64,000 nucleotides of DNA from Orobanche coerulescens. Taxonomy: Eukaryota > Streptophyta > Magnoliopsida > Lamiales > Orobanchaceae. The notes beneath the pieces are model-generated. The model was not told the origin of the DNA. It saw nothing but the letters and a program-made list of their open reading frames with translations, and did no database searches. Every line of letters starts with the position of its first letter. Position 1 is the first letter of the stretch. The translations under genes and the position numbers were made by a program. Where the stretch lies: positions 82,416,358 to 82,480,357 of the forward strand of contig CM065814.1 in assembly GCA_033398695.1 (NCBI GenBank). The letters run 5' to 3'. Shown piece by piece: positions 22,572-62,800 of this stretch.

Positions 22572-24939
22572 TGTAATACCCCGTTGTAATTCAGTAATTA
22601 TCATTCAGTAATTATCATTCAGTAGTTGTCTGTCGGATTATTTCACTCATTAATAATCTTTCATCATTCATGATTCATTCATTATATTCATCGTTGGCGT
22701 ATTTTAGCCGTGTATTAGTTACCGATCGTCATTCATTTCCATTTGAGAATCGAGACGAGAAGTATTGTCAAAATCATCGTGACAGGTAGTCTTTTGTTTG
22801 GAAGTATTACCTATTGCATGTTATCGGACTCATTTATATTCATACAAGTATGGTATGTCAGATCATTCAGCGATGTGTGTCGAGTAGACGGATTTGTCAT
22901 TTCGTTGCTGTCCAACAGCGAGTTACGGCCGTAACATGCTTGCATTATGGGCGTAACATGCGTTCGTTGTTTTCAAGACATGTCGGATGAAGGGTACTTA
23001 CGGCCGTAAGGGTTGCGGCATACGGCCGTAAGTTGAGGCAGGTACGGCCGTAACGCTTGGCCGGTTACGACCGTAAGATCGAGCAGGGTGCCCGGATCAG
23101 TTTTCGACGAAGTCATCTTATGCCCGTAAGTTTTGCCGAGTACGGTCGTATGAGCCGAGTTACGCCCGTAAGGCAGGTGCGGTTACGGCCGTAAGTCTGC
23201 CGGAAGACTTTCGACGAAACCGAGTTACGCCAGTATGATGTGGCTGGTCACGGCGGTAAGGCCGTTGACTTGGAGAGGTTACGGCCGTAAGTAGGCCGAG
23301 TTACGGCCGTAACATTCGGCAGTTTATATAGACTTGGACGAGATTTTTGCACTAATTTCACCCTTCTTCAGTTGAGTTCCGAGAGAGAAGTTCTTGGGAG
23401 AGATTTTCTTCATCACATCACTTCGGTAGGAGTGTTCTAATCATATATCTTGGATTGGGAAGCTTGGATAGTCGATTTAACACGATTTCACCGGATCAAA
23501 GTGTTTGGATCCTCAAAGGTAAATTCTTCAACATCTTGGATTTCGATTTTGTGTTGAGATATGATGTTTTGGATGTTATAATCATGTTGTATGAAGAGAT
23601 ATACATATGATTATGAGTTTGTATGAATATTTATTGGATTATTGAAGGATTATTCAAGAACACTTTGAATATTGACTTGGATTTGGGGGTTTTCGATTAG
23701 ATGTTGTTGAAATCTTGAATTGGATATTCATATTGGATTATTTATTGCATTGAAGATGTTTTTGTTGGGTTGTATTACTCCTTGTAGGTTTGATATCGAT
23801 AAAATTAAGGAATGGTTGTAAACAATCAAAAATTGGTTACAACGTGTTTGTTATAATGCCCCAATGAACTTGGATTATTCATATCGACGTTTTGAGTGAG
23901 TTATAATCGTGCTTGATATGTATATTGAACAGATTGTGGGTAATTGTGTTATACAAGGATGTTCGAGCGACCGACATCTCATTGTAGGACGTTTGTTCGA
24001 GGAAGGACATTCTTCACCGGTGTTGAGTACGTTAATTCTTAATCGGTTAAAAGGATCCTCATTCCTTTCGTTGTTGTTCATTCATAAATCATAATTCAAT
24101 CATAGTGGAATAATCATGTTGAGACTTGTAATTATCAAAATAATCATTTCATTCACAAGGAACGACGGTTCCAATCAATTCAATGAGCTATCATTCATTT
24201 CATTATTATGTCATCCCGGTGAATCATTATTGACCTTTGTCGTATTGTTATTCATTAATGTGCATTGGTCACTTTTGCTCTTGTGGCCTTCTGGCTTCAT
24301 ATTGCGTGGCCGGGTGGGGATGTATGGAATTTTTAGTCGGGCACAAGATAGTCATGTGATCGGGTTCACCGACACATTGGACTGTGCACACGGAAACGTA
24401 CCTCCGTGAGACTAATTAGGTACAAGGGCGGGTGTGTCCGGACACTCGTCTTGTGCACCTGCACATACCATTACGGGCGTACTGTGATGCCTCTCTTCAG
24501 CTTAATTTCATAATTAAGATATATCATGATTTGTGTTATTCAACTCTTGAGGATTGTTGTTCTGTGTAACTGACCCCGTTGGGGGATGTTGTTTTCAGGT
24601 CATGGCAAGGCTAAAGCATGGGAAGAGAACTTTGGCGGCGAGGAGTCCCATTAATACTAGTAGGGGGCCCAGTCCTTTCAGTCATCCGTGTTTCTTCATT
24701 TTATTTCCGCTGCAGACTTCCATGTGAAAAATCATTTTTATTCAGTGTTGTATATTTTATCTTCATATAAAATATACATATATTCTGTATTATCTTGAAA
24801 CTCCTCATCGGAGTAATTGATGATATAATGTGGTTTGGTACTAAAATTATATGACTTACGTCATTAATTTTCATTCGCCTGGTGGGTCCTAGTCGGGGGT
24901 CCACGACACTGTAATAGTCGCCTAGTTTGGGGTGTTACA
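22572..24939 (+). repeat. 3' LTR of the cluster, TTACGGCCGTAA type (2,368 bp)
   Basis: Starts TGTAATACCCCGTTG, ends TTTGGGGTGTTACA. Palindrome array 22921-23313, TATA box TTATATAG 23324-23331, donor-like CAAAG|GTAAATT at 23518/23519, acceptor-like TTTTCAG|GTCATGG at 24598/24599 (about 1.08 kb apart), A/T-rich zone with TATAAAATATACATAT, and terminal box. The flank GTTGG (24940-24944) would be the right copy of the target duplication; the left copy is outside the window. Confidence 0.92.
22921..23313 (+). promoter_or_regulatory. Palindrome array and TATA box of the 3' LTR
   Basis: Repeated TTACGGCCGTAA with spacing often near 20-23 bases; the last copy ends about 10 bases before TTATATAG. Same order as in the array LTRs. 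Confidence 0.75.
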
Positions 24940-24940
24940 G

Positions 24941-25834: not shown

Positions 25835-27848
25835 TGTAATACCCGTACTTTTTATTGACTGTTTGATCTTGTCTTCCTTCCTATTTTGTCGCTCTGTAAA
25901 CTCTTGGTGATGTTGTCGATATTGTTATAGATTTTCGTACCTTTTTGGATCCCGATTGTGTTGTTTTGACCTTGCGGAAGTGTTCTGGGTCAGAGAAATA
26001 GCGCACGCTAGGCCTAGGATAACGCACGCTAATTCTCCTTGAGTAGCGCATGCTAGCTTTGAGCCTTAGCGCGCGCTAAGGGACCAGTCAGGTCAGAACC
26101 AGTAACTCATCCTGCTTTCTGGACTGGCAGTTAACGCGCACTAGGAGTTCGTTAGCGCATGCTATTCGTGGTCAGTAGCGCGCGCTAACACCCATCCGTA
26201 GCGCACGCTAACGGGCTAGTTGGCAGAGGCAGTGAGGTTGTCAGGTTGTCTGGACTATCAGGTAATGTACGCTAGGCTTCGGCTAGCGCATGCTATAAGG
26301 ACAGCGTAGCACACGCTAAGCTATCGCGGTAGCGCACGCTAAGACTCGAGCAGGGCAGAGGACAGTAGGTTCTGGACTCCGATTTCTGAACACCATTTTC
26401 GTCTAGCGCACGCTAAAGGAAGGCGATTAGCGCACGCTAATGGGGCCGACAGAAGCCACTGGGCTACCCGGTGACCCCGCTAGCGCACGCTAATATTAGA
26501 GGCGTAGCGTGCGCTAGACTAGGCGAGTATATATTGGACAGTTGACTTCCTTTTCATCATTTTTCTCATCTTTCTCACATTTCCGATCGAGAGCAGCGGA
26601 TTTCGGCGATTTGGAGAGTTTGAAGGCGATTTTTCTTCAGATATCAACATCTTTGGTTTGGAGAACAACGATTTAACAACATCTAATCCATTCTATCGTC
26701 CAAATCAAGGTAAAAATCCTTAGAACCCTATTTTTTTGGGAATTTTGGGGTTTTTCTTAGATTCCTTCGATTTATCCGGTTTGAATCTTGAGAATCTTGA
26801 GATTATGATATATCTACCCCGTATACATGCTTTTCCTATGATTTTGCGGATTGGTGTGTGCCGTGTTCAGACTTGTGAGGGTTTGAGTGATTTTCCAACA
26901 TCTAGTTGTTTACCCTTGTATTTTCGTGAATCGTAGACGGGTTTCGGGAGTTTCTTCGTGAATTATGAGTATGTATTATTGATTATCATATCCCTTACGA
27001 ATCGTTTAGGTACCGTAAGTGCGTTTTTGGACCTACCGAACTCATACTCTTTTCCGTTTGATTTGTCGATTTCTCAAAGGAAAGTATATATTTATGATTA
27101 TACGTTCTCAACTTTGAAAGTAAGATATATGAATGGCATGTTTATTTATATCCACTCTGGGATGGCCGACGGGTCCTCTGAGGGTTTCGTAGCCTCTGGT
27201 GCGATTCCACGGATCATATGAGTTAACCACTCTAGGATGGACCGACGAGTCCTCTGAGGGTTCCGTAGCCTCTGGTGCGGTTCCGCGATTAATCATGTAT
27301 GTATTGATGTGATGCGATGAGATTTAGTTATTCCGGAATACTATTCTTTAATTCATGAATTGACGGTTACCTTTACTTTATTGTCGAGGAGTATTGTATT
27401 TCATATTCGATATACTTGCACTAGCTATTCGACGACTAACCCTTTTATGGGGGAAATACTTTTTATGTATTTCAGGTTCCAGGAGAGCGGACAGGCAGGT
27501 ATCGGGTCAGCATGAAGATGATGGGCAAGCGTGATACCGTGTCTTATCTCCGGTTATGTTTTGTGTTCCTCCATTCAGTGTTGTTGTACTAGAATGGTTA
27601 TTGAATACTCGAGTAATGTTTTTCAGCTTCCTCGATGTTCCGGCCTGTGTTGCCGCGGTATTGATTTAGTGTTGTGATGTATTTGGATACATTGGATATG
27701 GTTTGAATGCCCTTTGTATTGTTTTTCATTTCGTTGTATTTGGACCTTCTCGGTCAAGTTTTATAGTTCCGCATATGATTAGCCTTGTGGGTCCCACAGA
27801 GGGGCTCACGGCGCTGTAATATACCCTGAATAACTTGTGGGTGTTACA
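25835..27848 (+). mobile_element. Solo gypsy-type LTR with 5-bp target duplication gtttc
   Basis: Starts TGTAATACCCGT, ends CTTGTGGGTGTTACA, flanked by GTTTC at 25830-25834 and 27849-27853; the copia gag reads across the empty site. Contents: palindromes TAGCGCACGCTA at 25997-26515, TATATATTGG at 26528, donor-like AATCAAG|GTAAAA at 26709/26710, two tandem modules of about 75 bp (27160-27300, sharing GGTCCTCTGAGGGTT or GAGTCCTCTGAGGGTT), and acceptor-like TTTCAG|GTTCC at 27475/27476. No internal domain, so it probably arose by LTR-LTR recombination. Confidence 0.93.
25997..26515 (+). promoter_or_regulatory. Palindrome array TAGCGCACGCTA with TATA box
   Basis: About fifteen copies of TAGCGCACGCTA / TAGCGCGCGCTA and decayed forms (TAGCGCATGCTA, TAGCACACGCTA), with the TATA box at 26528 just after the last copy. 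The motif is the reverse complement of the motif in the reverse gypsy LTRs. Confidence 0.75.
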
Positions 27849-28377: not shown

Positions 28378-29436
28378 TGTTGGAACATTTTGTTCCATAC
28401 ATGCTTAATAGTGTTTTGATGATTAAAGTTGTTACACAAAGCAAAACAACGAAGAGACGAAGCAAAGCATCGAAGAAATCAAAGTCGAAAAAAGGAGTTC
28501 TGAACATGCATGACGTACGTAAGAGTAGTAAAGTAGTAACCTAACGTACGTAAGATGTCGACTATAGCGTACGTAATATGAAAGGCGTAACGTACGTAAC
28601 CAAGGTTTTCAGAATTCAAACAAGAAGAACGTTGGACGAGTCAAAGTAAAAAAGGCTGCAACGGACATATGACGTCAGCAATGACGTATACTTAACGTAC
28701 GTAATGCAAGATTGGCTAATATACGTAAGGAAAAGAACGAATGCTACTGAACTAAATTGCATTCACGCTAACGTACGTAACAATGATGATATAACGTACG
28801 TAAAGTATCTTACATACGTAATGGAAAGCAGATAGCAGCCGTAATGGAGTGTCAGGAGGCTAACGGCTAGTTTGGTTGATGAAGGCTATAAATACCACTT
28901 CCTTGGTATTCATCCATACAACAACTTCGAGCAGACGACTCATTGATCAGATATTCATATTGATATTATTGTTGTTGTGATATTGAGCTTATATTGTTAG
29001 TTAGAGTGTTTATACATTCAACATCATACACGAGAGGTAAAAGAAAAGATACGATTGGATTCGATGTTATTAGGATCAAGGATCCGGCATTATTAGAATC
29101 GCAATCGGTATCTTCGTGAGGTTTATCTAGTACCCATAGAAAGCTAGAGCGGTTGATTCCTTGTCCGATAGAAAAGTAAAATGGTTTAACTTGGACCGAC
29201 ACAAAGACAAGTACTAGTGGTTTATCACGGACCAATAGAAGACGTGATTGTAACGGTTATCCCTCGACCGATAGAAGAGAGGTGCAGAGGTTTTTCTTCA
29301 ACCTGTTGAAAAAGATACCGAGAGAGGACGTAGGCTCGTTTATAGCCGAACCTCTATAAATCAGTGTGTTGTTTAATTTCCGCACATTTAATTTATGCTT
29401 CCGCAATACGGCGCATTATTCGATCGTGATCCAATA
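28378..29436 (+). repeat. 3' LTR of the older gag-only element (1,059 bp)
   Basis: Starts TGTTGGAACATTTTGTTCCA and ends near GATCCAATA by alignment with CCCAACA of the younger copy. Contains palindromes AACGTACGTAA at 28510-28820, TATAAATA at 28887-28894 overlapped by the inverted repeat AATACCA...TGGTATT, and the R/U5 body shared with the LTRs at 40075 and 43198. The right boundary is set only by alignment. Confidence 0.85.
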
Positions 29437-31300
29437 ATTCAAAATCTAAATACTTACAGATCGTAAAGGTGACGGTTCCCCGTGAACTGATTTTGCAAAA
29501 TGTATGTTTTGAAAATACACGTACTGAGAAAAATAGTTTAGAATACGATTTTCCAAAATAACTTAAGTTCCCAAAACCAAAAGGCCATTACAAAATACCC
29601 ACGCAGCGGAAAAACAAACAATTAAAAATGCTCTAGGAGCGGAATGCAACAACTAGTCAAAGTACTCGATTCACAAATACATGCCATAGCCAGTATCCTC
29701 CAGGAAGCTCATCTCTTCACGAACGCTACAAGCTCAATATCCCAAGAACCTAAAAAGAAAGCCCACGACGGGATCAGCCATAATAATCAACAATGATAAC
29801 GATCACATCACGTCAATAATTACATATCAATGAAAATACCAAGTAAGGATACTACCAATGTAACCTTACCGCCATAACTTTCCCAACTCGTGATAATCCT
29901 TACCAAAGTAATCCTTACCAAAATTCACGTCTCGTATCCTCAACAACACAATAAACTCATACTCAAACATCTGTATTGTACCTCATGCAATACCCAAGGT
30001 TCTCAAAACATCATAACTCACTGATACGAAATATACCGACTCAATCCATCGGATATCATTATCAAATCTCAACACGAAAACCGATTGTCCATCAAAGACA
30101 AATACCAAAAAGGAAATACGAAATGCCACGATGAATCATGTCAGTCTAATCCGAGATCAGACTAATACAACATATGGACACGGTTCTAACACAAGACCTA
30201 CAAATGCATACTCACATGATGACATCAATATGCCCACAACAATAACAACAATGTATACTCAATGGAAATCCGATGATCTACCGCACACAGCATAGATCCC
30301 AAGATGACCCTGCTAGATCAACACGAGGTGGATAACTAATAATATACATATGCACAACAAAAACACATGGTAATCCAATGATACAACGCACACAACATAG
30401 ATTCCCACGATGATCCCGTTGGACCAATGCATGGTGGAAATACCTGTCCAACGATCCAGTGCACATAGCTATAGATTCCCATGATGATCCCGTCGGACCA
30501 ACGCATGGTGGACATACGACAACGTTACACAACTGCACAAAACAATAATACACAATGCACAACAACAACAATACACGAATATATCACAACATGATCGACA
30601 CTAAATGACAAATATGGTTAGAATACTTGCCTCAAGTCCTTCGAGAGCAATCTCGATGTCAAAACCATCCCTAACAAATATCCTCAAAAATTGGCGATCC
30701 AAAAATACCACGGACTGTAGATAACGCATATCCTCGCATTTACCACAATATATCCTCGATACCCAAATATACCAATGACGAATGGAAATCATATGCGTAA
30801 CGATTTAACTCCCAAAAATCGGAAAACAACATATAATCCGAATCTCTAAGGTTCACAATAGTAATTATTGCTATATGCATTATAAACAAAGTGAAACGGA
30901 AACCATTCATTAAATATTATAAGCGGAACAAGTAATAACTTGCCTCGATACTGATACGACGATAGTGAAGCCGTTACCAATTCCTTGCTGTCGTCTACAA
31001 GCTCTTCGGCCCTGACCCAAGAAATCCACGAGCATCCTTGAACTCGACCGTAAGGCACGATTCTGATCAATGATCAATTATCGCAGCCCATTGCAATAAT
31101 AAATTAACAACAATCCGATAACAATCAACAACCGACACGGCCAACAAATCAACTCAACAGTTCAACGATTTCTCGATCATACACAAAACCAAATAATCCA
31201 ACTCAATAAATACGATTCCATAATCTAATAATCACATCAACGATCAACTCATCCCGATAGCAAGGATTACATAACATACTCTATTCCGAATCAACCTCGA
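29437..31300 (-). repeat. Truncated reverse LTR-like fragment
   Basis: No open frame of note. On the minus strand it shows the marks of the 3' half of the local gypsy LTRs: a CCGCTGC zone (29603), three or four modules of about 65 bp at 30270-30520 containing GGTCCGACGGGATCA or close variants, and two GAGGCAAGTA boxes (near 30625 and 30940). No palindrome array or TATA box is visible, and neither end can be fixed, so it looks truncated at both sides. Confidence 0.5.
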
Positions 31301-32814: not shown

Positions 32815-32975
32815 GCCCGAAGACCTCACCTGCAGTCCGATCAGACGGTCAGACCTCACCTACAGTCCAGTTAGACCTCACCTACGGTCAGGTCAAACGG
32901 TCAGACCTCACCTGCAATCAGGTCAGACCTTACCTGCAGTTCGGTCAGACCTCACCTGCAGTCCGGTCAGACATC
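32815..32975 (+). repeat. Minisatellite of about 20-22 bp units
   Basis: Seven or eight imperfect copies of GTCAGACCTCACCTGCAGTC. Embedded in the AT-rich interior of the element. Confidence 0.8.
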
Positions 32976-32994
32976 ACCTGATGACAGCTGGGTG

Positions 32995-35380: not shown

Positions 35381-37955
35381 TGTAACACCCCCAAACCAAT
35401 CGGGAATATTAAAGCGCCGCAGACCCTCTCCGTGAAGATCTACTAGGCTAAAATCGGAAAACACAACAAATAGATACATGCCAACATGGCTAATAACGAT
35501 TCACTAAACCGATTTGGTCTTTTACACAACACACACATTAAATATACATAACTCTTCCTCAAAACACATACCCACACAGGGTTTGGAATATATCTACATG
35601 CCCGTAAAACGGGAAAACCACACAACAGGGAACCAAACAATAAGGTTCTACCAAAACACAACTGGTCTTCATGTGATTAGTACCGTCGTATTCTATCATC
35701 CTTCGTATCGATCCTGTGCATATCGGGGGTTAGCAAAACTCCACTGTTTTGCTAGTGCAAGTATACAATATGAATACATGCCATACGTATCATACTCTAA
35801 GGACATAATAATCATGAAACATACTTCCCGAGCTAAATCACTTGATCAAAATGGTTCAATCGAAACATAGGGGTAAACCTGATATACATCTTGTAAAACA
35901 TTTTACGATCTCGGGAGTTTTGAAAACATTTGGGATTTAAGAATTCTCAAGCCTTTCGAAACCATTTAGGGACACAACCCAAAAGTCATTTTCCCAAAAT
36001 ACCATTATGATAACAACACATGGGGTCCACGACCCAATCATACGTATCAACATATTCCCAGGGCTTATTTGCGTCCCGTGCTAACAAGCCAGGGGCCTGA
36101 GATGCTACCGCGGAACATACCCGAGTGAATAACATGTCTCCATGACAACGGTCACATAACCATAATCGTACATACGTTCATAGTTATCCTGGCACCGCAC
36201 TAACAAGCTACGAGCCTCGGAGCCTCCACGAGACATACCCGATTGGACAACCCATGACACGTGCATCATACAACCAAATTACAACCATAAGTTATCCCGG
36301 CATCGTACTAACAAGCTACGAACCTCAGAGTCCCCGCAAGACTTACCCGATGATAACCCCACTAGTTATCCCGGCATTAGGCTAGCAAGCCACGAACCTT
36401 GGAGTCCCCACAAGACATACCCGATGATAACCCTATAGTTCCGCCCGACGCATACTAGCAAGTATGAATCTCGGAGATTCAACAATCTTACCCGGTGGCA
36501 CAATCACTTACAACAATCACGCATCAATAAGCACTTAACATGCCAAACAACATTAAGCATCACAACCTTCTTTCAAATGAGTAGCAATTAATATCACAAC
36601 ATGTCAACTACCCACCGAACGAGTATATAGATCGATACACAATCCTCGGCAAGTGATTATAGTCTATTATATTCACGAAGTATAGTTATAACATCTAACC
36701 ACATACAACACATATACACATTTATCCACAATTCATACGAGTAATCTTGAAGGGAACCCTTTTTATCGAGAATATACCGATATTTTAGAAGGTTCATTAA
36801 AACATTCAAGTTCCATATATAACCAATTACCAACTATCGCGTCTACGAAACACGAAGTGTATGGACAAGATACTTGCCTCGATACCACGAGCAACCGAAC
36901 AACGAACAGACATGGTTGGATAGTTCTCGAGCTTCCAAAAACAACTAAGGATCTGGAAATCCCACGAATACTATGAAAATAACATCACCACGAATCAATA
37001 ACACTAATCGAAATCTGAAACGATCCTAAAAACAACAAGGATCTAAGTGTTCTCAAGGAAATCAAGAATCATTGATCCAAGTGATAAAAATCGATGAACG
37101 TTTTACAAAATCCGAAGATCACGGCCAAGACAATCAAGAATACACAACCGATCGGATGAGATCGGGTAAGAATCACAAATCCAAGGAAAACCCCCAAATT
37201 CAAGAAACTAGGGTTCTAAGAAGAGATTACCTTGATTTGGAGCAAGAAGGTGATTAGATGATGCTAGATATGCATAAATCCACCCAACTATGAAGCTTGA
37301 GGAAGAAGGTCCCTCAAAATCGCCTTTGGAGCTCACTCCCGTCGGAAATGGATGAAGAAGGGTGAGAAATGACGATTAAACACTGTTGTCTAGTATTTAT
37401 ACTGGACAGTTATTAGTGTGCGCTAGCACACTTCATTACCGTGCGCTAACGGGGTCAACGCTCCAAAACAACCCGCCTGTAACATAGTTAGCGTGCGCTA
37501 GCCAATACGAGTTGCGTGCGCTAACAAGTCACGAATCCAGTCCAGTGGCTCATGGACTGGTATGCACCTACCAGGTAGCGTGCGATAGTATGAACGATTA
37601 GAGTGCACTAGGCAGACGATAGCGTGCGCTATCAACCAACTATAGCGTGCGCTAACGAGACTCCAGTCCCAGTGCAGTAGCTCCTGGAGTGCCTCTGGAC
37701 TGCAAGTTAGCGTGCGCTACACATCCAGTAGCCTGTGCTAATCACAACATAGTAGCGCATGCTACACCACAAGTGTTAGCGTGCGCTACACCACAAAAAC
37801 CCAAAAACTCACATAGTGGTCCGAAACACCTCCAAACACATGTCCCAACAGGGTACACCGAAAACATGGCACAAAATTCCAACGATGAGGACAATAATAA
37901 TCCGATAAAACCCAGAAAACTCCACGAATTCGAAACAAGTATCTCGGGTATTACA
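35381..37955 (-). mobile_element. Solo gypsy-type LTR, reverse, target duplication tatag
   Basis: Plus strand begins TGTAACACCCCC and ends CTCGGGTATTACA. TATAG flanks it at 35376-35380 and 37956-37960. Read on the minus strand: palindromes TAGCGTGCGCTA at 37412-37790, TATAAATA at about 37394-37401, donor-like AATCAAG|GTAATC near 37235, conserved GGCAAGTATCTTGTCC box at 36858-36881, and four modules of about 90-100 bp at 36060-36480. No internal domain remains. Confidence 0.92.
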
Positions 37956-39290: not shown

Positions 39291-39994
39291 TCGGGTGCCC
39301 AACCTGACTGTCGGAGTCGTTGAGATTCACTACTATGTTCAGTAGTGGTGTTACGACCATAAGAGTTATGAGTTACGGTCATATGTGTTGCTATTTATGG
39401 CCGTAAGTATCTTTTATTACGACCGTAGTTAGTCCTGTGTTACGGCCATAAACCGATTTTTGTTACGACCATAATGAACGTTCGTATTTTGGGCAGTATC
39501 CCAGAGGGGTAGATAAGGCCGTAAGTCCTGGGTGTTACGGCCGTAACATGCCACTGGTATATAAACCAGTGGCAGCATCATTTTCGGGACAGAACCCCCA
39601 TTTCGCCCCCTTCGTTTCTTTTTGGGATTTTTGAGAGCAGAGGTGATTCGTGAGTTTGAGGAGGCGATCTTCATAGATTCGGGAAGCTTAGTTCATGTTA
39701 ATCATCATCTTTCACTTCATTCGTCTGGATCGAAGGTAATTTCTTGAAATCTCCTTGGGTTGACTTCGGGATTTCCTTCTTGATTTCGTTGGTCGTCCGA
39801 TTTTGATGAATCGATTGATGTTATTGAGTATTATTAATCATGTTCTATGGATTGTATATCCATATTTCGAGTTTGTTTAACTCGATTAATGATTCGAGTG
39901 TTCTTGGGAATTATTGAATATTTAATGTTCGATTAAATGTCCCAATGAGTTTTCCTTCGATAGTTTGGTGGGATTTCCGTTGTTCTTGGTCTTG
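39291..39994 (+). repeat. Forward LTR fragment with TTACGGCCGTAA array
   Basis: Decayed TTACGGCCGTAA copies (many as TTACGACCATAA or TTATGGCCGTAA) at 39345-39545, TATATAAA at 39558-39565 between perfect 9-bp inverted arms, donor-like CGAAG|GTAATTTC near 39735, then sequence close to 47712-47990 of the tandem array. It ends near 39994, where reverse-orientation LTR sequence begins. Confidence 0.7.
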
Positions 39995-40074
39995 ATTCTG
40001 GAACAACTCACCCAAAGGCAATAAACACATAGCACCACACAAGTGTCAAATCACAACACACCGGTGTTGGAACA

Positions 40075-45588: not shown

Positions 45589-46027
45589 TTACCATAGCGC
45601 GCGCTAACCAATAAGTGTAGCGTGCGCTAACGACTCATAAGGACAGCAACAGTATTCTCGGAAATGGGTACGACGACGGATACCCACAACTTTGGGAAAT
45701 TACAGACCGGTACCAATAGTCTGAAAAATCACGATACGACAACGGTTAATCAAACCGAAGCTCACAATATGAATGAAAATGTTAAATAACCTTACGTGAA
45801 ACCCAAAATGACAGTTTCGAATGAGATTCGTAAGAATCGAACTCAAGCGCGGAAAAGTCGTCTAAGAGCACGGAACTCAACAAAACGACGCCGAAACAAA
45901 CTCGGACGTCCAAAAAGTGCAGAATTAAATACTCTCAGAATGACGAAATGGTCACGACCGAGTCGTCAAAATGGACTCCCGCCGAAAAAAAAGAATTTAC
46001 CAAAAAATCGAAATCGCGGATATTACA
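45589..46027 (-). repeat. Reverse LTR 5' end, array-family tip with a different palindrome
   Basis: Minus strand starts TGTAATATCCGCGATTTCG (46027) and follows the array LTR start (46738 onward) for about 380 bases through TCATTCTGAGAGTATTTAAT-like text and TAATTTCCCAAAGTT. Its palindromes at 45592-45631 are TAGCGCACGCTA / TAGCGCGCGCTA, not TTACGGCCGTAA. It is truncated at 45589 against the end of another reverse LTR. Confidence 0.75.
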
Positions 46028-46737: not shown

Positions 46738-48802
46738 TGTAATATCCGCAATTTCGAATTTCGGTAATTTTATTTTTTTTCTGCGGAAGTCCGTTTTGAC
46801 GCCTCGCTCATGACCGTTTCGTCATTCTGAGAATGATTAATTCTGCACTTTTTGTCATCCGAGTTCGTTTCGGTGTTGTTTTGTTGAGTTCCGTGTCATT
46901 TGGGGACTTTTCCGCACTTGAGCTCGATTCTTGCGAATCTCGTCCGAAACTGTTGTTTCGAGTTTCTCGTAAGTTCATTTAATGTTATTATTCATGTTGT
47001 GAGCTTTGGTTCGGTGTTTCGATCACGTATCGTGATTTCCGGGCGTTTTGGGCCATTTTTGTAATTTCCCAAAGTTTGGGGTAATTACTTCTGTTGTCGA
47101 ATTCCGACACTTCGGGTGGTCGGAATCGTGTGTTCTCTTAGCGCTTAGATTCGTCTTTGCGAGTACTTCGTAACCATATCTCCGATTTTTACTCAAGTTC
47201 GGGTTTCGGGGTCGTCAAGCCGTCGGAGTAGCCAGTAGTCACCGGAGCGGCAGAACTGGCTGGCCGAGTTATGGCCGTAAGGTGCCGGTTACGGCCGTAA
47301 TGTGTGCCAGTTACGGCCGTAAGTGTGATCGGGTATGGCCGTACGGGCGCTGGGCATCTTCCGGACGAAGGCCGTTACGGCCGTAATGTGTGCCAGTTAC
47401 GGTCGTAAGTGTCCGACGATTCTTTGGGTGATTTTTGATTTTTGGCGAATGCGATTACGGCCGTAAGGCTTGCCAAATGCGGCCGTATGGGCGAGTCTGG
47501 CCATAAGTCACTGCCGGTTACGGCCGTAAGTGTCCGGCAGTGACCGGCTATATAAGGCCTGGCAGCCCGTTTTTACTCATTTCCTCACTTTTCTTGCGGC
47601 TATCGGACGGGTGCGACGGGGAACCGAGTTCCTGGCCGATTCTAATCATTTCCAAGGCATTTTGGAAGATCCTTGTTGATTATATCATCATCCAATCCGT
47701 GTTATTCGTCGAATCAAGGTATATTTCTTGATTTTCCTTCAAGTTGACTTTTTGGGGAATTTGTTCTTGATTTCGATTCTAGTCCAATTTTGATACATCG
47801 GTTGGGTAGTATGATGTTATTAATCGTGTTATATGGGTTGTATATCCATATATCGAGTTTGTTTAACTCGATTGACGATTCGAGTGTTCTTGGGAATTAT
47901 TGAACATTTAGTGTTCGATTAAATGTCCCAATGAGTTTCCCTTCGATAGTTTGTTGGGATTTCTGTTGTTTTGGCCTTGATTCTCGTCGTAACCATGTGT
48001 TATTGTTCCTTCCATAGGTTTATAGGTGTTCGAGGATTCCGATGTTGAATCCCGTTTGGTGATTGATGATTCGTGTGGTGTTATTCTCGTAATACTCGTG
48101 GTGTTATCGCGTTCTTGATGGTGTTCGGGCGTTCGTGGATATTCGACCGCGTCCTATCCGTCGTCTCGTTGCGATCGTGATTTCGAGGCAAGTACCTTGT
48201 CCATACAATTCCTGTTTTGTGAATATGATAATTGGTTATCGTCTTTATGTGTTTGTATTTTATTGTTCTTCGTGATTCGAACATGATTGTTCGCTTTTTG
48301 TTCTCTCGACCGTTGTGGTTCGATCGTTTGATTGTTTGGTTTTTGTTGATCTCGTCTTGTGATTGTTGAGCATTCAGGCTCCTTCGTAATTCCCTTAAGT
48401 TCGGTAAATTAGTCTCGTTTCGATCTTCCAACCCTTGGGCGGTGGAATTCTGTAATAGTTCAGCGCTTGGCTCGCGTTTTGATTGATGAACCGTTGGGTT
48501 GGTAAATCGTATTGATTTTTCGTTCGTTGTGTTTTGTGATTGTTCGGATAATCGACTCGATTGTATTGTTTTGATGACACTTGTCACTTGTTGATTTTAT
48601 TATGTCTCTACCGGTGGCATTGTGTTGGTCGTCCTGGAGCGTGTTTTCACGCCGTATATTCCTGTGCGTTGCTTGTAACGTTTCACCGATGGGCGTAAGT
48701 TATGCATTTCTTGTGTATCTCGTTGAGTTTTCCTGGCGGGGATATTGCTTCTCCCTACTTGTTTTAAGTTTCGGGACGAAACTTCTTTTAAGGAGGGTAG
48801 AA
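46738..48802 (+). repeat. Array unit 0, internally deleted
   Basis: LTR start to about 48256, then joined within ATTTTATTG homology to the last 540 bases of the interior, with PPT at 48790-48802. About 3.46 kb is missing compared with unit 1. It keeps the palindrome array (47268-47530), TATATAAG (47549-47556), donor-like site (47718/47719) and GGCAAGTACCTTGTCC box (48184-48207). Confidence 0.9.
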
Positions 48803-51797
48803 TGTAATATCCGCAATTTCGAATTTCGGTAATTTTCTTTTTTTTTTTCGGCGGAAGTCCGTTTTGACGACTCGCCCATGACCGTTTCGTCATTCTGAGA
48901 ATGATTAATTCTGCACTTTTTGTCATCCGAGTTCGTTTCGGTGTTGTTTTGTTGAGTTCCGTGTCATTTGGCGACTTTTCCGCACTTGAGCTCGATTCTT
49001 GCGAATCTCGTCCGAAACTGTTGTTTCGAGTTTCTCGTAAGTTCATTTAATGTTATTATTCATGTTGCGAGCTTTGGTTCGGTGTTTCGATCACGTATCG
49101 TGATTTCCTGGCGTTTTGGGCCATTTTTGTAATTTCCCAAAGTTTGGGGTAATTACTTCCGTTGTCGAATTCCGACACTTCGGGTGGTCGGAATCGTGTG
49201 TTCTCTTAGCGCTTAGCATCGTATTTGTGAGTACTTCGTAACCATATCTCCGATTTTTACTCAGGTTCGGGTTTCGGGGTCGTCCGGGCCGTCGGAGTGG
49301 CCACGGCCGAGTCACGGCCGGAGCAGGGCCTGGCCTGGCCGAGTTACGGCCGTAAGTGTGATCGGGTACGGCCGTACGGGCACTGGGCATCTTCCGAACG
49401 AAGGCCGGTTACGGCCGTAATGTGTGCCAGTTACAGACGTAAGTGTCCGACAGTTGCTGGACTGATTTTTTGACGAATGCCGGTTACGGCCGTAAGGCTT
49501 GCCAAGTACGGCCGTATGGGCCGAGTTACGGCCGTAAGTCACTGCCGGTTACGGCCGTAAGTGTCCGGCAGTGACTGGCTATATAAGGCCTGGCAGCCCG
49601 TTTTTACTCATTTCCTCATTTTTCTTGTGACTATCGGACGGGTGCGACGGGGAATCGAGTTACTGGCCGATTCTAATCATTTCCAAGGCATTTTGGAAGA
49701 TCCTTGTTGATTATATCATCATCCAATCCGTGTTCTTCGTCGAATCAAGGTATATTTCTTGATTTTCCTTCAAGTTGACATTTTGGGGAATTTGTTCTTG
49801 ATTTCGATTCTAATCCGATTTTGACACATCGGTTGGTGTAGTATGATGTTATTAATCGTGTTCTATGGGTTTTATATCCATATATCGAGTTTGTTTAACT
49901 CTATTGACGATTCGAGTGTTCTTGAGAATTATTGAACATTTAGTGTTCGATTAAATGTCCCAATGAGTTTCCCTTCGATAGTTTGTTGGGATTTCCGTTG
50001 TTTTGGCCTTGATTCTCGTCGTAACCATGTGTTATTGTTCCTTCCGGAGGTTTTTAGGTGTTCGAGGATTCCGATGTTGAATCCCATTTGGTGATTGATG
50101 ATTCGTGTGGTGTTATTCTCGTAATACTCGTGGTGCTATCGCGTTCTTGATGGTGTTCGGGCGTTCGGGGCTATTCGACCGCGTCCCATCCGTCGTCTCG
50201 TTGCGATCGTGATTTCGAGGCAAGTACCTTGTCCATACAATTCCTGTTTTGTGAATATGCTAATTGGTGATCGTCTTTATGTGTTTGTTTGGTCGTTTGA
50301 AATGAGTTTTCAAAAGATTTGGTTAGCCTTGTTAAAGGCCCTCTTTCAAAACCGTGTGTGTTTTGTGATTGGTGTGATTCGTGAACGAGTATGTGAATCT
50401 TATGGACATGTTTGGTGTTGATGATGCACTTGGTATTTGCGTGTGGACGTATATTGTTTCATTTCGGTGCATTGTGATTGACGTGTTGTTTTACTAAGTG
50501 TTTGATGCCTCTGGGTGAATTGTTTGGATATCCTTGGTGTGATATGTTACTAGTGCTTGAGTTTGATTCGCTAGCCAGCTCGGGAGGGTCCTTCGAGGCC
50601 TCGAGTGGGATTCGTGGCTTCGTCCCGGTCCTAGGTGACGTGTGGTGCTTGAGTATTTCGCTAGCCAGCTCGGGAGGGTCCGACGGGATCACGGAGTGGG
50701 ATTTGTGGCTTCGTCCCAGTCCTAGGCGATGTGAGTACGTGTTTTGTGAATGTGTTTGCTCACCTCGGGAGGGTTCGACGGGACCACGGAGGGAATTCCA
50801 ATGGCTTCGACCTGGGTTCACGAGTGAAACTTCACCGCTACGTGTATATATTTTGTGATTGTTTTTCGCTCACCTCGGGAGGGTCCGATGGGATCACGGA
50901 GGGTGTCCAATGGTATAGCCCTGGATTCACGAGTGCGATTGCTTATGTTTTGTGAATGTGTTTGCTCACCTCGGGAGGGTTCGACGGGGCCACGGAGGGA
51001 ATTTCATTGGCTTCGACCTGGATTCACGAGTGAAACTTCACGGGTGCGTGTGTATTTTATGTCCGTCGAGGATGCATGACGTGGGTTTTTAACCTTGTGT
51101 ATTATGGTTGGTTTTATCTGCAAAAACAAAACCTTTGGGCTGTGACCCTGTTGATTTTTGGAAAGCGAAGGATTCGGTAATCCTAAATTGTTTCCTATTA
51201 AAACTCTCGATGGCAATTCAAACTGTTTTATAAATAGTTTTCCCTTGATTTGCGACCATTCGGTTTTAGAATGTTTTACCAAACTCTTGCATCGGGAAGT
51301 ACTTTTCGTCACGTTCGGATTTTTGAGGATTCCTGATTATTATTGTTATTGAAACTTGTATTGTATGGCTCGTATTTTTGCACTTGTACTTGCACTAGCA
51401 AAGCAGTGGAGTTTTGCTAATCCCCGAGTATTCGGGGGGTGGATGTCTATTTTTGCATTCAGGTTTTGGAGCATAACACAGGGTCGGCACGAAGGATGAT
51501 GAAAGATGAACGATACTAATCACACGAGGATCCGTTGATGTCGTATTGGTCTAGTTGTATTTTCTTTTCCGCCGCAAGATGTTTCCGTTGTACGGGAGTT
51601 TATCAGATTTTGACCCCGCGTGGGTATGTGTTTGGAATCGAGTTGTATGTTATTATTGAAAGACCAAGTCGGTCATCTTGAGTCATTTTAGCCTTAAAGG
51701 CGATGTTTAGATGTTTGATTTTAGTTATCAGCCTGGTAGATCCTCGAGGAGAGGGTCTACGGCGTGTAATATCCCTGAGTGGATTGGGGGTGTTACA
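48803..51797 (+). repeat. Array LTR 1 (2,995 bp)
   Basis: TGTAATATCCGC ... GATTGGGGGTGTTACA. Palindrome array 49314-49562, TATATAAG 49580-49587, donor-like AATCAAG|GTATAT 49749/49750, conserved box 50216-50239, five modules of about 70-120 bp at 50575-51045 (CTCGGGAGGGTCCGACGGG and variants), TTGCACTAGCAAAGCAGTGG near 51393, acceptor-like GCATTCAG|GTTTTGG 51462/51463, and CCGCCGC zone near 51570. Frames in this region are by-products of the modules. Confidence 0.92.
49314..49587 (+). promoter_or_regulatory. TTACGGCCGTAA array and TATA box, array LTR 1
   Basis: About seven near-perfect palindromes TTACGGCCGTAA or GTACGGCCGTAC/T, several at 20-23 base intervals, then TATATAAG 18 bases after the last copy. 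Unit 1 has fewer copies than units 0, 2 and 3 because about 50 bases are missing. Confidence 0.8.
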
Positions 51798-51801
51798 TAA
51801 A

Positions 51802-54306: not shown

Positions 54307-57300
54307 TGTAATATCCGCAATTTCGAATTTCGGTAATTTTCTTTTTTTTTCGGCGGAAGTCCGTTTTGACGACTCGCCCATGACCGTTCCGTCATTCTGA
54401 GAATGATTAATTCTGCACTTTTTGTCATCCGAGTTCGTTTCGGTGTTGTTTTGTTGAGTTCCGTGTCATTTGGCGACTTTTCCGCACTTGAGCTCGATTC
54501 TTGCGAATCTCGTCCGAAACTGTTGTTTCGAGTTTCTAGTAAGTTCATTTAATGTTATTATTCATGTTGCGAGCTTCGGTTCGGTGTTTCGATCACGTAT
54601 CGTGATTTCCTGGCGTTTTGGGCCATTTTTGTAATTTCCCAAAGTTTGGGGTAATTACTTCCGTTGTCGAATTCCGACACTTCGGGTGGTCGGAATCGTG
54701 TGTTCTCTTAGTGCTTAGCATCGTCTTTGTGAGTACTTCGTAACCATATCTCCGATTTTTACTCAGGTTCGGGTTTCGAGGTCGTCCGGGCCGTCGGAGT
54801 GGCCACGGCCGGAGCAGGGCCTGGCCTGGCCGAGTTACGGCCGTAAGGTGCCGGTTACGGCCGTAATGTGTGCCAGTTATGGCCGTAAGTGTGATCGGAA
54901 TGCCGTGCGGCTGGGCATCTTAGAGCGAAGGCGATTCTGGCCGTAATGTGTGCCGATTACGGCCGTAAGTGTCAAACGATTCTTTGGGTGATTTTAGACG
55001 AATGCCGGTTACGGCCGTAAGGCTTGCCAAGTACGGCCGTATGGGCCGAGTTACGGCCGTAAGTCACTGCCGGTTACGGCCGTAAGTGTCCGGCAGTGAC
55101 CGGCTATATAAGGCCTCACAACCCGTTTTTACTCATTTCCTCACTTTTCTTGCGACTATCGGACGGGTGCGACGGGGAATCGAGTTCCTGGCCGATTCTA
55201 ATCATTTCCAAGGCATTTTGGAAGATCCTTGTTGATTATATCATCATCCAATCCGTGTTCTTCGTCGAATCAAGGTATATTTCTTGATTTTCCTTCAAGT
55301 TGACTTTTTGGGGAATTTGTTCTTGATTTCGATTCTAGTCCGATTTTGATACATCGGTTGGTGTAGTATGATGCTATTAATCGTGTTCTATGGGTTTTAT
55401 ATCCATATATCGAGTTTGTTTAACTCTATTGACGATTCGAGTGTTCTTGAGAATTATTCAACATTTAGTGTTCGATTAAATGTCCCAATGAGTTTCCCTT
55501 CGATAGTTTGTTGGGATTTCCGTTGTTTTGGCCTTGATTCTCGTCGTAACCATGTGTTATTGTTCCTTCCGGAGGTTTGTAGGTGTTCGAGGATTCCGAT
55601 GTTGAATCCCGTTTGGTGATTGATGATTCGTGTGGTGTTATTCTCGTAATACTCGTGGTGCTATCGCGTTCTTGATGGTGTTCGGGCGTTCGGGGCTATT
55701 CGACCGCGTCCTATCCGTCGTCTCGTTGCGATCGTGATTTCGAGGCAAGTACCTTGTCCATACAATTCCTGTTTTGTGAATATGCTAATTGGTGATCGTC
55801 TTTATGTGTTTGTTTGGTCGTTTGAAATGAGTTTTCAAAAGATTTGGTTAGCCTTGTTAAAGGCCCTCTTTCAAAACCGTGTGTGTTTTGTGATTGGTGT
55901 GATTCGTGACGAGTATGTGAATCTTATGGACATGTTTGGTGTTGATGATGCACTTGGTATTTGCGTGTGGACGTATATTGTTTCATTTCGGTGCATTGTG
56001 GTTGACGTGTTGTTTTACTAAGTGTTTGATGCCTCTGGGTGAATTGTTTGGATATCCTTGGTGTGATATGTTACTAGTGCTTGAGTTTGATTCGCTAGCC
56101 AGTTCGGGAGGGTCCTTCGAGGCCTCGAGTGGGATTCGTGGCTTCGTCCCGGTCCTAGGTGACGTGTGGTGCTTGAGTATTTCGCTAGCCAGCTCGGGAG
56201 GGTCCGACGGGATCACGGAGTGGGATTTGTGGCTTCGTCCCAGTCCTAGGCGATGTGAGTACGTGTTTTGTGAATGTGTTTGCTCACCCCGGGAGGGTTC
56301 GACGGGAACATGGAGGGAATTCCAATGGCTTCGACCTGGGTTCACGAGTGAAACTTCACCGCTACGTGTATATATTTTGTGATTGTTTTTCGCTCACCTC
56401 GGGAGGGTCCGATGGGATCACGGAGGGAGTCCAATGGTATAGCCCTGGATTCACGAGTGCGGTTGCTTATGTTTTGTGAATGTGTTTGCTCACCTCGGGA
56501 GGGTTCGACGGGGCCATGGAGGGAATTTCATTGGCTTCGACCTGGATTCACGAGTGAAACTTCACGGGTGCGTGTGTATTTTATGTCCGTTGAGGATGCA
56601 TGACGTGGGTTTTTAACCTTGTGTATTATGGTTGGTTTTATCTGCAAAAACAAAACCTTTGGGCTGTGACCCTGGTGATTTTTGGAAAGCGAAGGATTCG
56701 GTAATCCTAAATTGTTTCCTATTAAAACTCTCGATGGCAATTCAAACTGTTTTATAAATAGTTTTCCCTTGATTTGCGACCATTCGGTTTTAGAATGTTT
56801 TACCAAACTCTTGCCTCGGGAAGTACTTTTCGTCACGTTCGGATTTTTGAGGGATTCCTGATTATTATTGTTCTTGGAACTTGTATTGTATGGCTCGTAT
56901 TTTTGCACTTGTACTTGCACTAGCAAAGCAGTGGAGTTTTGCTAACCCCCGAGTATTCGGGGGGTGGATGTCTATTTTTGCATTCAGGTTTTGGAGCATA
57001 ACACAGGGTCGGCACGAAGGATTATGAAAGATGAACGATACTAATCACACGAGGATCCGTTGATGTCGTATTGGTCTAGTTGTATTTTCTTTTCCGCTGC
57101 AGTATTTTTCCCCGTTGTACGGGAGTTTATTGTATTTTGACCCCTGCGTGGGTATGTGTTTGGAATCGAGTTGTATGTTATTATTGAAAGACCAAGTCGG
57201 TCTACTGAGTCATTTTAGCCTTAAAGGCGATGTTTAGATGTTTGATTTTAGTTATCAGCCTGGTAGATCCTCGAGGAGAGGGTCTACGACGTGTAATATC

Positions 57301-57324
57301 CCTGAGTGGATTGGGGGTGTTACA
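54307..57324 (+). repeat. Array LTR 2 (3,018 bp)
   Basis: TGTAATATCCGC ... GGGGGTGTTACA. Palindromes 54830-55088, TATATAAG 55105-55112, donor-like 55274/55275, conserved box 55741-55764, modules 56095-56570, acceptor-like 56987/56988. Primer-binding site at 57329-57340. Confidence 0.92.
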
Positions 57325-59830: not shown

Positions 59831-62800
59831 TATAATATCATGATTTAATTCGGTAATTTTCTTTTTTTTTTTCGGCGGAAGTCCGTTTTGACGACTCGCC
59901 CATGACCGTTCCGTCATTCTGAGAATGATTAATTCTGCACTTTTTGTCATACGAGTTCGTTTCGGTGTTGTTTTGTTGAGTTCCGTGTCATTTGGCGACT
60001 TTTCCGCACTTGAGCTCGATTCTTGCGAATCTCGTCCGAAACTGTTGTTTCGAGTTTCTCGTAAGTTCATTTAATGTTATTATTCATGTTGCGAGCTTTG
60101 GTTCGGTGTTTCGATCACGTATCGTGATTTCCTGGCGTTTTGGGCCATTTTTGTAATTTCCCAAAGTTTGGGGTAATTACTTCCGTTGTCGAATTCCGAC
60201 ACTTCGGGTGGTCGGAATCGTGTGTTCTCTTAGCGCTTAGCATCGTCTTTGTGAGTACTTCGTAACCATATCTCCGATTTTTACTCAGGTTCGGGTTTCG
60301 AGGTCGTCCGGGCCGTCGGAGTGGCCACGGCCGAGTCACGGCCGGAGCAGGGCCTGGCCTGGCCGAGTTACGGCCGTAAGGTGCCGGTTACGGCCGTAAT
60401 GTGTGCCAGTTACGGCCGTAAGTGTGATCGGGTACGGCCGTGCGGTGGGCATCTTAGAGCGAAGGCGGTTCTGGCCGTAATGTGTGTGCGATTACGGCCG
60501 TAAGTGTCAAACGATTCTTTGGGTGATTTTTTGACGAATGCCGGTTACGGCCGTAAGGCTTGCCAAGTACGGCCGTATGGGCCGAGTTAAGGCCGTAAGT
60601 CACTGCCGGTTACGGCCGTAAGTGTCCGGCAGTGACCGGCTATATAAGGCCTGACAACCCGTTTTTACTCATTTCCTCACTTTTCTTGCGACTATCGGAC
60701 GGGTGCGACGGGGAATCGAGTTCCTGGCCGATTCTAATCATTTCCAAGGCATTTTGGAAGATCCTTGTTGATTATATCATCATCCAATCCGTGTTCTTCG
60801 TCGAATCAAGGTATATTTCTTGATTTTCCTTCAAGTTGACTTTTTGGGGAATTTGTTCTTGATTTCGATTCTAGTCCGATTTTGATACATCGGTTGGTGT
60901 AGTATGATGTTATTAATCGTGTTCTATGGGTTTTATATCCATATATCGAGTTTGTTTAACTCTATTGACGATTCGAGTGTTCTTGAGAATTATTGAACAT
61001 TTAGTGTTCGATTAAATGTCCCAATGAGTTTCCCTTCGATAGTTTGTTGGGATTTCCGTTGTTTTGGCCTTGATTCTCGTCGTAACCATGTGTTATTGTT
61101 CCTTCCGGAGGTTTGTAGGTGTTCGAGGATTCCGATGTTGAATCCCGTTTGGTGATTGATGATTCGTGTGGTGTTATTCTCGTAATACTCGTGGTGCTAT
61201 CGCGTTCTTGATGGTGTTCGGGCGTTCGGGGCTATTCGACCGCGTCCTATCCGTCGTCTCGTTGCGATCGTGATTTCGAGGCAAGTACCTTGTCCATACA
61301 ATTCCTGTTTTGTGAATATGCTAATTGGTGATCGTCTTTATGTGTTTGTTTGGTCGTTTGAAATGAGTTTTCAAAAGATTTGGTTAGCCTTGTTAAAGGC
61401 CCTCTTTCAAAACCGTGTGTGTTTTGTGATTGGTGTGATTCGTGAACGAGTATGTGAATCTTATGGACATGTTTGGTGTTGATGATGCACTTGGTATTTG
61501 CGTGTGGACGTATATTGTTTCATTTCGGTGCATTGTGGTTGACGTATTGTTTTACTAAGTGTTTGATGCCTCTGGGTGAATTGTTTGGATATCTTTGGTG
61601 TGATATGTTACTAGTGCTTGAGTTTGATTCGCTAGCCAGCTCGGGAGGGTCCTTCGAGGCCTCGAGTGGGATTCGTGGCTTCGTCCCGGTCCTAGGTGAC
61701 GTGTGGTGCTTGAGTATTTCGCTAGCCAGCTCGGGAGGGTCCGACGGGATCACAGAGTGGGATTTGTGGCTTCGTCCCAGTCCTAGGCGATGTGAGTACG
61801 TGTTTTGTGAATGTGTTTGCTCACCTCGGGAGGGTTCGACGGGAACATGGAGGGAATTCCAATGGCTTCGACCTGGGTTCACGAGTGAAACTTCACTGCT
61901 ACGTGTATATATTTTGTGATTGTTTTTCGCTCACCTCGGGAGGGTCCGATGGGATCACGGAGGGAGTCCAATGGTATAGCCCTGGATTCACGAGTGCGGT
62001 TGCTTATGTTTTGTGAATGTGTTTGCTCACCTCGGGAGGGTTCGACGGGGCCACGGAGGGAATTTCATTGGCGTCGACCTGGATTCACGAGTGAAACTTC
62101 ACGGGTGCGTGTGTATTTTATGTCCGTTGAGGACGCATGACGTGGGTTTTTAACCTTGTGTATTATGGTTGGTTTTATCTGCAAAAACAAAACCTTTGGG
62201 CTGTGACCCTATTGATTTTTGGAAAGCGAAGGATTCGGTAATCCTAAATTGTTTCCTATTAAAACTCTCGATGGCAATTCAAACTGTTTTATAAATAGTT
62301 TTCCCTTGATTTGCGACCATTCGGTTTTAGAATGTTTTACCAAACTCTTGCCTCGGGAAGTACTTTTCGTCACGTTCGGATTTTTGAGGGATTCCTGATT
62401 ATTATTGTTCTTGGAACTTGTATTGTATGGCTCGTATTTTTGCACTTGTACTTGCACTAGCAAAGCAGTGGAGTTTTGCTAACCCCCGAGTATTCGGGGG
62501 GTGGATGTCTATTTTTGCATTCAGGTTTTGGAGCATAACACAGGGTCGGCACGAAGGATGATGAAACATGAACGATACTAATCACACGAGGATCCGTTGA
62601 TGTCGTATTGGTCTAGTTGTATTTTCTTTTCATTGCGATATTTTCCCCGTTGTACGGGAGTTTATTGTATTTTGACCCCTGCGTGGGTATGTGTTTGCAA
62701 TCGAGTTGTATGTTATTATTGAAAGACCAAGTCGGTCTACTGAGTCATTTTAGCCTTAAAGGCGATGTTTAGATGTTTGATTTTAGTTATCAGCCTGGTA

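Follow-up and report, generated by a model that had tools for sequence, protein, structure and literature searches.

Helically spaced arrays of 12-bp palindromes upstream of TATA-like motifs in Gypsy-type and Sirevirus long terminal repeats of Orobanche coerulescens

Palindrome arrays in the long terminal repeats (LTRs) of plant retrotransposons have been described for the Sireviruses. The available text of Bousios et al. (2010; PMC2829016) describes 13 Sireviruses whose TATA box is preceded by palindromic repeated motifs (RMs); a CGG-CCG core is present in 12 of them, and the RM of Tnd-1 is without it. The RM was called Sirevirus-specific with respect to the classic Copia elements that were compared (PMC2829016). 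In maize, clusters of Sirevirus palindromes in the LTR cis-region have a predicted structure and are small-RNA hotspots, according to passages that cite Bousios et al. 2016 (PMC10760457, PMC5311732), and the palindrome CACCGGACNNNGTCCGGTG is also reported from maize Helitrons (passage in PMC10760457). Here, we analysed a 64-kb stretch of Orobanche coerulescens DNA (contig CM065814.1, positions 82,416,358 to 82,480,357; the window), which by self-comparison consists mostly of nested and duplicated LTR retrotransposons. Arrays of 12-bp palindromes are found there in Gypsy-type LTRs as well as in Sireviruses of the Copia superfamily. All results, with the grammar counts, arrays and gaps, are taken from this one window.

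The excess of the motif was measured against 100 dinucleotide-preserving shuffles of the whole window. The grammar TNNCGNNCGNNA occurs 127 times, compared to 12.9±3.3 in the shuffles (maximum 23), and the matches that are near-palindromic, with at least 10 of 12 letters self-complementary, number 99 compared to 2.1±1.5 (maximum 8). Dinucleotide-matched shuffles had been proposed as a check together with the motif, for LTRs genome-wide; within the window they do not match the observed count. Perfect palindromes of at least 12 bp were found 86 times versus 18.4±4.5, with 15 of the 86 being AT repeats. Each of 16 array regions tested held 5-10 grammar matches, whereas the means of their own shuffles were 0.06-0.39. 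Outside the arrays, nine LTRs had 7 matches, none of the three types described below (one each in F2a, F2b and F3, two each in F8c and F8d; handles as in Table 1). Four internal regions were examined; the three Gypsy-type ones had no match and the Sirevirus one had two.

When up to 2 mismatches to the consensus of a type were allowed, 180 sites were called in 17 arrays of 7-16 sites, many of them duplicates. The TAGCG type makes up six arrays (F1a-d, F3, F5) and the TTACGG type eight (F2a, F2b, F6, F7, F8a-d), all in Gypsy-type LTRs, while the TAACG type is found in the three Sirevirus arrays (F4a-c). The CpGs at positions 4-5 and 8-9 are the letters common to all three types, as the original prediction, made from the letters of the window, had said. 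Its three dominant 12-mers were present in excess and at the positions given, but TAACGTACGTAA and TAGCGTGCGCTA are only quasi-palindromes (10/12). F1a, F1b, F1c, F6 and the TAGCG-type pair upstream of F7 had been missed. A suggested fourth form, GCTCGCACGAGC, occurs a single time, at 34500, and does not fit, because its ends G and C break the grammar.

In the nine LTRs examined, which are 1.0-3.0 kb long, the main cluster is located roughly 130-800 bp into the LTR. Beyond the last site, the distance to a TATA-like motif is 11-12 bp in nine of the 17 arrays, 19 bp in four and 41 bp in two (F4b and F4c). The predicted placement just upstream of a TATA box was accordingly seen in 15 of the 17 arrays, whereas in two, including F4a, no TATA-like motif was found within 80 bp of the last site. 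Both superfamilies carry the motif, as had been claimed. Fourteen of the 17 arrays are in Gypsy-type LTRs, or in fragments so assigned by their ends or by homology.

The arrays resemble the RM, which in the available text is also palindromic, present in high copy, clustered within the upper LTR half shortly upstream of the TATA box and variable in sequence between elements, and TTACGGCCGTAA of the window shares its CGG-CCG core (PMC2829016). Unlike in that report, the palindromes of the window are also found in Gypsy-type LTRs, and its Sirevirus has CGT-ACG. The words 'helical' and 'spacing' are confined to the reference list in the text of that paper available to us (PMC2829016). In the open literature, with subscription papers and preprints lying outside, no report was found among the papers listed, which were judged mostly by title and start of the abstract, of Gypsy LTR palindrome arrays, of a helical ladder or of a replacement of the palindrome type. 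The passages obtained from PMC3485330, PMC11963269, PMC11302176 and PMC10794571 describe no Gypsy LTR palindromes or phasing, and a search by motif letters gave 12 papers with one of six typed motifs and one with TTACGGCCGTAA, none of them on plant retrotransposons as judged by title. Sirevirus palindrome arrays upstream of the TATA box are already known, which the original prediction had not mentioned; the arrays in Gypsy LTRs, the ladder and the type replacement appear to be new, as far as this search goes.

The spacing of the sites was analysed for the 163 adjacent gaps in the 17 arrays, duplicate arrays included. A spacing of 20-23 bases had been noted before, and indeed 108 gaps measure 19-24 bp. 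The others are 18 bp (1), 31 (3), 42-45 (7), 50-53 (19), 58-59 (3), 63-65 (13), 73-74 (6), 96 (2) and 105 bp (1). For the 25 long gaps in seven representative arrays, R was 0.75 at a period of 10.5 bp and 0.22-0.23 at 21-23 bp, indicating that the gaps follow whole helical turns, including odd ones, and not repeat units. The initial phase null disregarded homology, and two tests were added on that account. The distinct long gaps of four arrays gave V 0.81 (p 2.4e-4; single types p 0.0026-0.021), and with random placement of sites within the same spans the observed value was not reached in 5000 trials (p 0.0002 or less).

Whether the LTRs are related apart from their sites was tested by replacing the sites by N before alignment. 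Copia and Gypsy-type LTRs showed no same-strand similarity at E 1e-3, regardless of whether the sites were masked. After masking, similarity between F1d and F3 persists downstream of the array (63% over 488 columns) and in a single 49-bp piece inside it. F3 is alignable with F5 on the downstream side (67% over 218); F1d and F5 do not align. The flanks of F6, F7 and F8 align at 65-81%. Masked F2 aligned with none of these three, though all carry TTACGG sites. The unmasked matches between F2 and F8 (65-84%, in several registers) consequently come from the sites, and homology of the F2 and F8 U3 regions was rejected, because the alignments lie inside the arrays and disappear on masking. Since F2 and F6-F8 share their sites on LTRs that do not align, it was fair to call descent alone an unlikely explanation.

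The reverse case is seen in F1 and F2, which are like elements with unlike motifs, TAGCG in F1 and TTACGG in F2. Between F1d and F2b, the start of the LTR is alignable (80% over 190), as are the stretch from 1038 to 1569 (73%) and the LTR end (90% over 51), whereas the masked block of array and core promoter does not align. The internal DNA beside F1d is 87% identical to that beside F2a over 2784 columns. An exchange of the promoter block would be the simplest reading of this contrast. In the F7 LTR, which is F8-like, the TTACGG array is preceded on its upstream side by two TAGCG sites, and inside the array, at 45260, TAGCGCCCGTAA joins one half of each type; it has 3 mismatches and hence is outside the nine sites. 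The type of motif is not tied to the LTR backbone, as the F1/F2 contrast, the non-alignment of F2 with F8 and the F7 mosaic indicate. Either exchange or repeated origin could account for this distribution. Unlike promoter blocks on like elements also provide a matched natural test pair.

Tnt1 and Retrolyc belong to a Copia family. In the Solanaceae, these elements have unlike U3 regulatory modules within one lineage while the rest is conserved, as described in the passages of PMC1838419; the differing block of the window is Gypsy-type and comprises a palindrome array with the core promoter. Similarly, two wheat families of the Gypsy type have the LTR in common from about the TATA box on, while a preceding region is completely different, although the passages of PMC11302176 describe a nucleosome-linked 162-bp motif and not a palindrome array.

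The conservation of the sites was compared to that of the spacers in seven array pairs, and in five the sites were more alike. The identities of sites and spacers were 90% and 74% for F2a/F2b, 86% and 59% for F4a/F4b, 82% and 49% for F1d/F3, 75% and 50% for F7/F8c, and 70% and 38% for F3/F5. F2a/F2b and F4a/F4b give clean comparisons and carry most weight, because the spacers of the other three pairs hardly align.

We consider it probable that the arrays serve a host factor which recognises a specific sequence, probably binds as a dimer and activates the LTR promoter, its sites being in helical phase. A host DNA-binding protein is favoured because the motif occurs in Gypsy and Copia elements, on dissimilar LTRs and with helical spacing. 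The arrays would form the enhancer portion of the LTR promoters in the Gypsy lineage and in the Sirevirus. A 12-bp unit, composed of the half-site T-W-R-CG, a two-base centre and the inverted half-site, would be one site for a symmetric dimer. With gaps of about 2, 3, 4, 5, 6, 7, 9 or 10 turns, the sites would lie on one face of the DNA, and many dimers side by side could then act jointly on the downstream TATA box. Recombination might swap promoter blocks, such that the palindrome type is replaced and the coding part retained. The original prediction had invoked a host protein family recruited several times; the host protein is what our data favour, while the repeated recruitment is not required, as block exchange would also spread the motif.

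We know of no half-site among those of NAC, SBP, bZIP, BZR, CAMTA and LBD proteins that would fit all three types. The host proteins that drive most plant retrotransposons are, to our knowledge, largely open, and a phased class of motifs shared by the Copia and the Gypsy-type elements of one genome offers concrete 12-bp baits (TTACGGCCGTAA, TAGCGCACGCTA and TAACGTACGTAA) for the protein. If this protein were methylation-sensitive, the paired CpGs would be a route for silencing to shut off transcription. More tentatively, and with some doubt on our side, one host protein family with the half-site TWRCG might be the common activator of unrelated superfamilies, its related members reading all three types; elements would compete for paralogues, and types would switch by block exchange on a fixed helical scaffold. 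This would amount to an arms race over cis-elements, fought by transposons and host across superfamilies. Known cases in which host transcription factors read LTR motifs are ONSEN with HSFA2 and EVADE with WRKY (passages of PMC12786077), which the window would resemble if a factor binds; its arrays differ by 7-16 phased sites each, a single 12-bp grammar and a factor that is putative.

Several observations weigh against the proposal of phased protein sites. The periodicity of about 10.5 bp that had been put forward as a check was found for the long gaps but not for exact sites only, which gave V 0.08 at 10.5 and 0.36 at 10.7. All-pairs fits preferred 10.65-10.9 in seven of eight arrays, with R at 10.5 being just 0.12-0.69 over the eight. 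The 58-59 bp gaps, from three related arrays, are off phase, and block duplication within arrays together with shared lineage makes some gaps dependent. For conservation, sites and spacers did not differ in F1a/F1d (p 0.48) or in F8b/F8a (p 1). The spacers of F1d/F3, F7/F8c and F3/F5 (38-50% identity) are barely alignable, so the sites may anchor the alignment. Finally, calling sites by consensus inflates their apparent conservation, which was softened by counting each position that is a site in either copy.

An unselected origin by multiplication of a tandem unit, through slippage and recombination, would be in line with the two pairs lacking excess site conservation, with the 22-23 bp periods that Tandem Repeats Finder reported in seven of the 17 arrays (F2b, F4b, F4c, F8a-d), and with blocks of site plus spacer that recur, by eye, inside TAGCG arrays. 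We regard such functionless repeats as very unlikely, because identity is higher in sites than in spacers for five of the seven pairs and the architecture is common to LTRs that do not align. Moreover, gaps of 31, 52-53 and 73-74 bp are not unit multiples, and missing units would not give odd turns. The odd turns are also not predicted if the palindromes act in RNA, where the 3'-terminal U3 of the transcript would fold and neighbouring palindromes would pair, giving rise to silencing small RNAs or to a needed structure. Three folded arrays did beat their dinucleotide shuffles (z -5.4, -3.3 and -4.6), but any palindrome array folds in this way and the z-score is not independent evidence. The small-RNA hotspots at maize Sirevirus palindromes, as described in the passages of PMC10760457 and PMC5311732, speak for this explanation, whereas the Copia motif is consistently asymmetric (of the 19 sites in F4a and F4b, 15 have A at position 2 and all 19 have A at position 11) and would leave mismatches in the hairpin. 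A role in RNA is, in our view, unlikely.

A protein that binds methylated or unmethylated CpG might instead sense the paired CpGs, the rest of the site being incidental. The shared CpG positions and an observed/expected CpG ratio of 0.99-2.15 over 16 array regions fit this idea. To compare the letters, we counted 149 of the 180 sites, excluding the near-duplicate arrays F1b, F1c and F4c. T1 and A2 were present in 55/55 sites of the TAGCG type, T10 and A11 in 75/75 of the TTACGG type, and T10, A11 and A12 in 19/19 of the TAACG type. Exceptions were T1 (64/75) and A12 (66/75) in the TTACGG type and positions 2 and 3 (15/19 and 17/19) in the TAACG type. A sensor of the paired CpGs only, as a reading of the original prediction, found no support, and a reader of CpG alone is highly improbable, since the majority of letters outside the CpGs vary no more than the CpGs themselves. 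Methylated C is known to decay to T, which gives a bias to C>T or G>A. Over all 180 sites, whose copies are not independent, 56 of 64 changes at CpG letters were of this kind, as that decay predicts and contrary to a reader of CpG alone.

The methylation of the elements was also considered for a host DNA-binding protein that represses, marking the LTRs for silencing. In a one-sided count, C/G letters differed more often in CpG than elsewhere in three of four copy comparisons, at 4.3 versus 1.5% in the Sirevirus LTR pair, 2.1 versus 1.2% in F8c/F8d and 18.9 versus 11.8% in the internals, whereas F2a/F2b had no excess (19.8 versus 21.1%). A divergence of CpG 2-7 times faster had to be scaled down, because the two-sided count, with CpG in either copy, exaggerated it. 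The divergence is weakly consistent with CpG methylation of the elements and in so far with a repressor. Losing such sites would benefit the elements, yet the U3 sites outlast the spacers in five of seven comparisons, and we give the repressor the least credence of all. The activating, phased sites remain the probable explanation despite the weaker CpG argument, which is offset by the same motif being found on non-aligning LTRs. Over the whole window the observed/expected ratio of CpG is 1.13. This is high for methylated plant repeats, and it contrasts with the more frequent differences at CpG letters in three of the four comparisons.

Table 1. Palindrome arrays, LTRs and adjoining internal DNA in the window (PBS, primer-binding site; PR, protease; RT, reverse transcriptase)
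Feature	Position	Strand	Remarks
F1a array, 11 TAGCG-type sites	3737..4096	-	Gypsy-type LTR, minus-oriented, LTR start at 4217
F1b array, 10 TAGCG-type sites	7544..7903	-	related to F1a/F1d by self-comparison
F2a Gypsy-type LTR (start approximate)	7913..10293	+	14 TTACGG-type sites 8262-8704; PBS-like site at 10298
Internal DNA adjoining F2a	10294..13340	+	PBS-like site, gag, PR, RT
F1c array, 11 TAGCG-type sites	13827..14186	-	related copy by self-comparison
Internal DNA adjoining F1d	14568..17338	-	gag, PR, part of RT; 87% identical to F2a-side internal DNA
F1d Gypsy-type LTR, TGTAATACCC...GGTGTTACA	17339..18958	-	16 TAGCG-type sites 18187-18726; TATA-like motif about 18174
F2b Gypsy-type 3' LTR after pol	22572..24939	+	12 TTACGG-type sites 22923-23312; TATA-like motif 23325
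F3 solo LTR	25835..27848	+	Gypsy-type by ends; 16 TAGCG-type sites 25999-26516; TATA-like motif 26528
F4a Sirevirus LTR	28378..29437	+	9 TAACG-type sites 28511-28821; as-1-like element 28670
F5 array, 12 TAGCG-type sites	37414..37788	-	minus-oriented LTR ending at 35381, start not fixed
F6 decayed array, 7 TTACGG-type sites	39351..39546	+	TATA-like motif 11 bp past last site
F4b 5' LTR of 4.2-kb gag-bearing Sirevirus	40065..41105	+	10 TAACG-type sites 40200-40517; TATA-like motif about 40559
F4c 3' LTR, same Sirevirus as F4b	43198..44238	+	10 TAACG-type sites 43333-43650
F7 array, 9 TTACGG-type sites	45065..45380	-	F8-like LTR
TAGCG-type pair, 23 bp apart	45595..45629	-	upstream of F7 TTACGG array (mosaic U3); outside the 180
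F8a array, 7 TTACGG-type sites	47269..47529	+	
F8b array, 8 TTACGG-type sites	49344..49560	+	
F8c LTR of tandem LTR-internal unit	54307..57324	+	9 TTACGG-type sites 54835-55085; PBS 57329
F8d LTR (start approximate), next tandem copy	59831..62859	+	9 TTACGG-type sites 60368-60621; PBS 62864

The F1/F2 lineage was identified as Ty3/Gypsy by the Pfam domains RVT_1, RVP_2, Integrase_H2C2 and RT_RNaseH, and the F1 internal DNA matches the gag-PR-RT protein at 81% (tblastn). The lineage is putatively a Tekay/Del-like chromovirus; Pfam found no chromodomain in the 58-residue piece 22301-22474. F3 and F5-F8 were assigned to the Gypsy type by their LTR ends and LTR homology, and a tblastn search with the Gypsy proteins found no pol in the F8 units (48250-64000). 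The solo LTR F3 has the target duplication GTTTC and is inserted inside another Sirevirus.

The Copia assignment rests on the F4 element at 40065-44238, which has a Copia-type gag (PF14223, E 8.7e-32). Sireviruses are defined by a CA/ATTGG junction followed by the primer site TATCAGAGC, as given in the available text of PMC2829016; the F4 element reads CAATTGGTATCGGAGC, with one mismatch in the primer site. GGGGGAG is found at 42763, 42870 and 43189, judged as repeated purine tracts and not by the published octamer, and the attachment of the 3' LTR, AT/TG, is seen as GGGGGAGAT/TG. The arrays, with 9-10 quasi-palindromic sites per LTR, agree with the Sirevirus RM, for which at least 8 palindromic copies upstream of the TATA box are required, while the core is CGTACG and not CGG-CCG. 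Within 40065-44243, gag is the sole open reading frame (ORF) of at least 180 aa, and no RT was matched by Pfam in the pieces 41029-42384, 42381-42704 and 42635-42976. The element is flanked by the target duplication ACCGG, and its LTRs F4b and F4c are 98% identical. From the gag-only content, the two nearly identical LTRs and the target duplication, we conclude that this short Sirevirus is probably non-autonomous and recent. The top named matches of its gag ORF (41029-42384), among the best 100 of 7381, were Orobanche gracilis proteins with 73-83% identity over 50-67% of the query, which points to a probable host in the broomrape family. In each of the three Sirevirus LTRs, TGACGN7TGACG stands between palindrome blocks (28670, 40342 and 43475), a layout like that of the plant as-1 element of the salicylate/stress response.

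The self-comparison also exposed large duplications. The region 1-7912 is largely a duplicate of 10058-18555 at 94-95% identity, such that 1-18555 appears as a direct duplication of a block of nested elements of roughly 8-10 kb. The region 48250-64000 is a head-to-tail tandem of a 5.5-kb unit in the order LTR-internal-LTR-internal, with an LTR of 3.0 kb and an internal part of 2.5 kb. Because of this duplication and this tandem, the array copies are not independent, and speaking of unrelated families in the literal sense had to be qualified. No relatives turned up in scans of IMG/VR that used the Sirevirus gag and the integrase of the Gypsy lineage. The palindrome pair pattern had 0 matches in viral contigs and was found at 3 loci in bacterial sequence.

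A few further repeats were observed. The long spacers of F1, F3 and F5 (63-74 bp gaps) contain, by eye and in several spacers, a second, looser dyad around CCAGT...CTGGACT. In 34350-34650, CTCGTGC-like words, seen by eye, are repeated before a TATA-like motif together with the one GCTCGCACGAGC; this is possibly an array of a different motif. An exact primer site for the initiator tRNA is located at 32557; downstream of it, tandem repeats of 22 bp and 64 bp containing GGTCAGACC, TGTCCGGACA and CGAGCATGCTCG occupy 32821-33170, and GGTCAGACC is similar to the published Sirevirus motif CGGTCAGACCG. At 4176-4478, 14258-14568, 6433-6743 and 17076-17387, segments of LTR end, primer site and 5' leader stand in inverted order beside truncated Gypsy internals, and self-integration or inversion might yield such joins.

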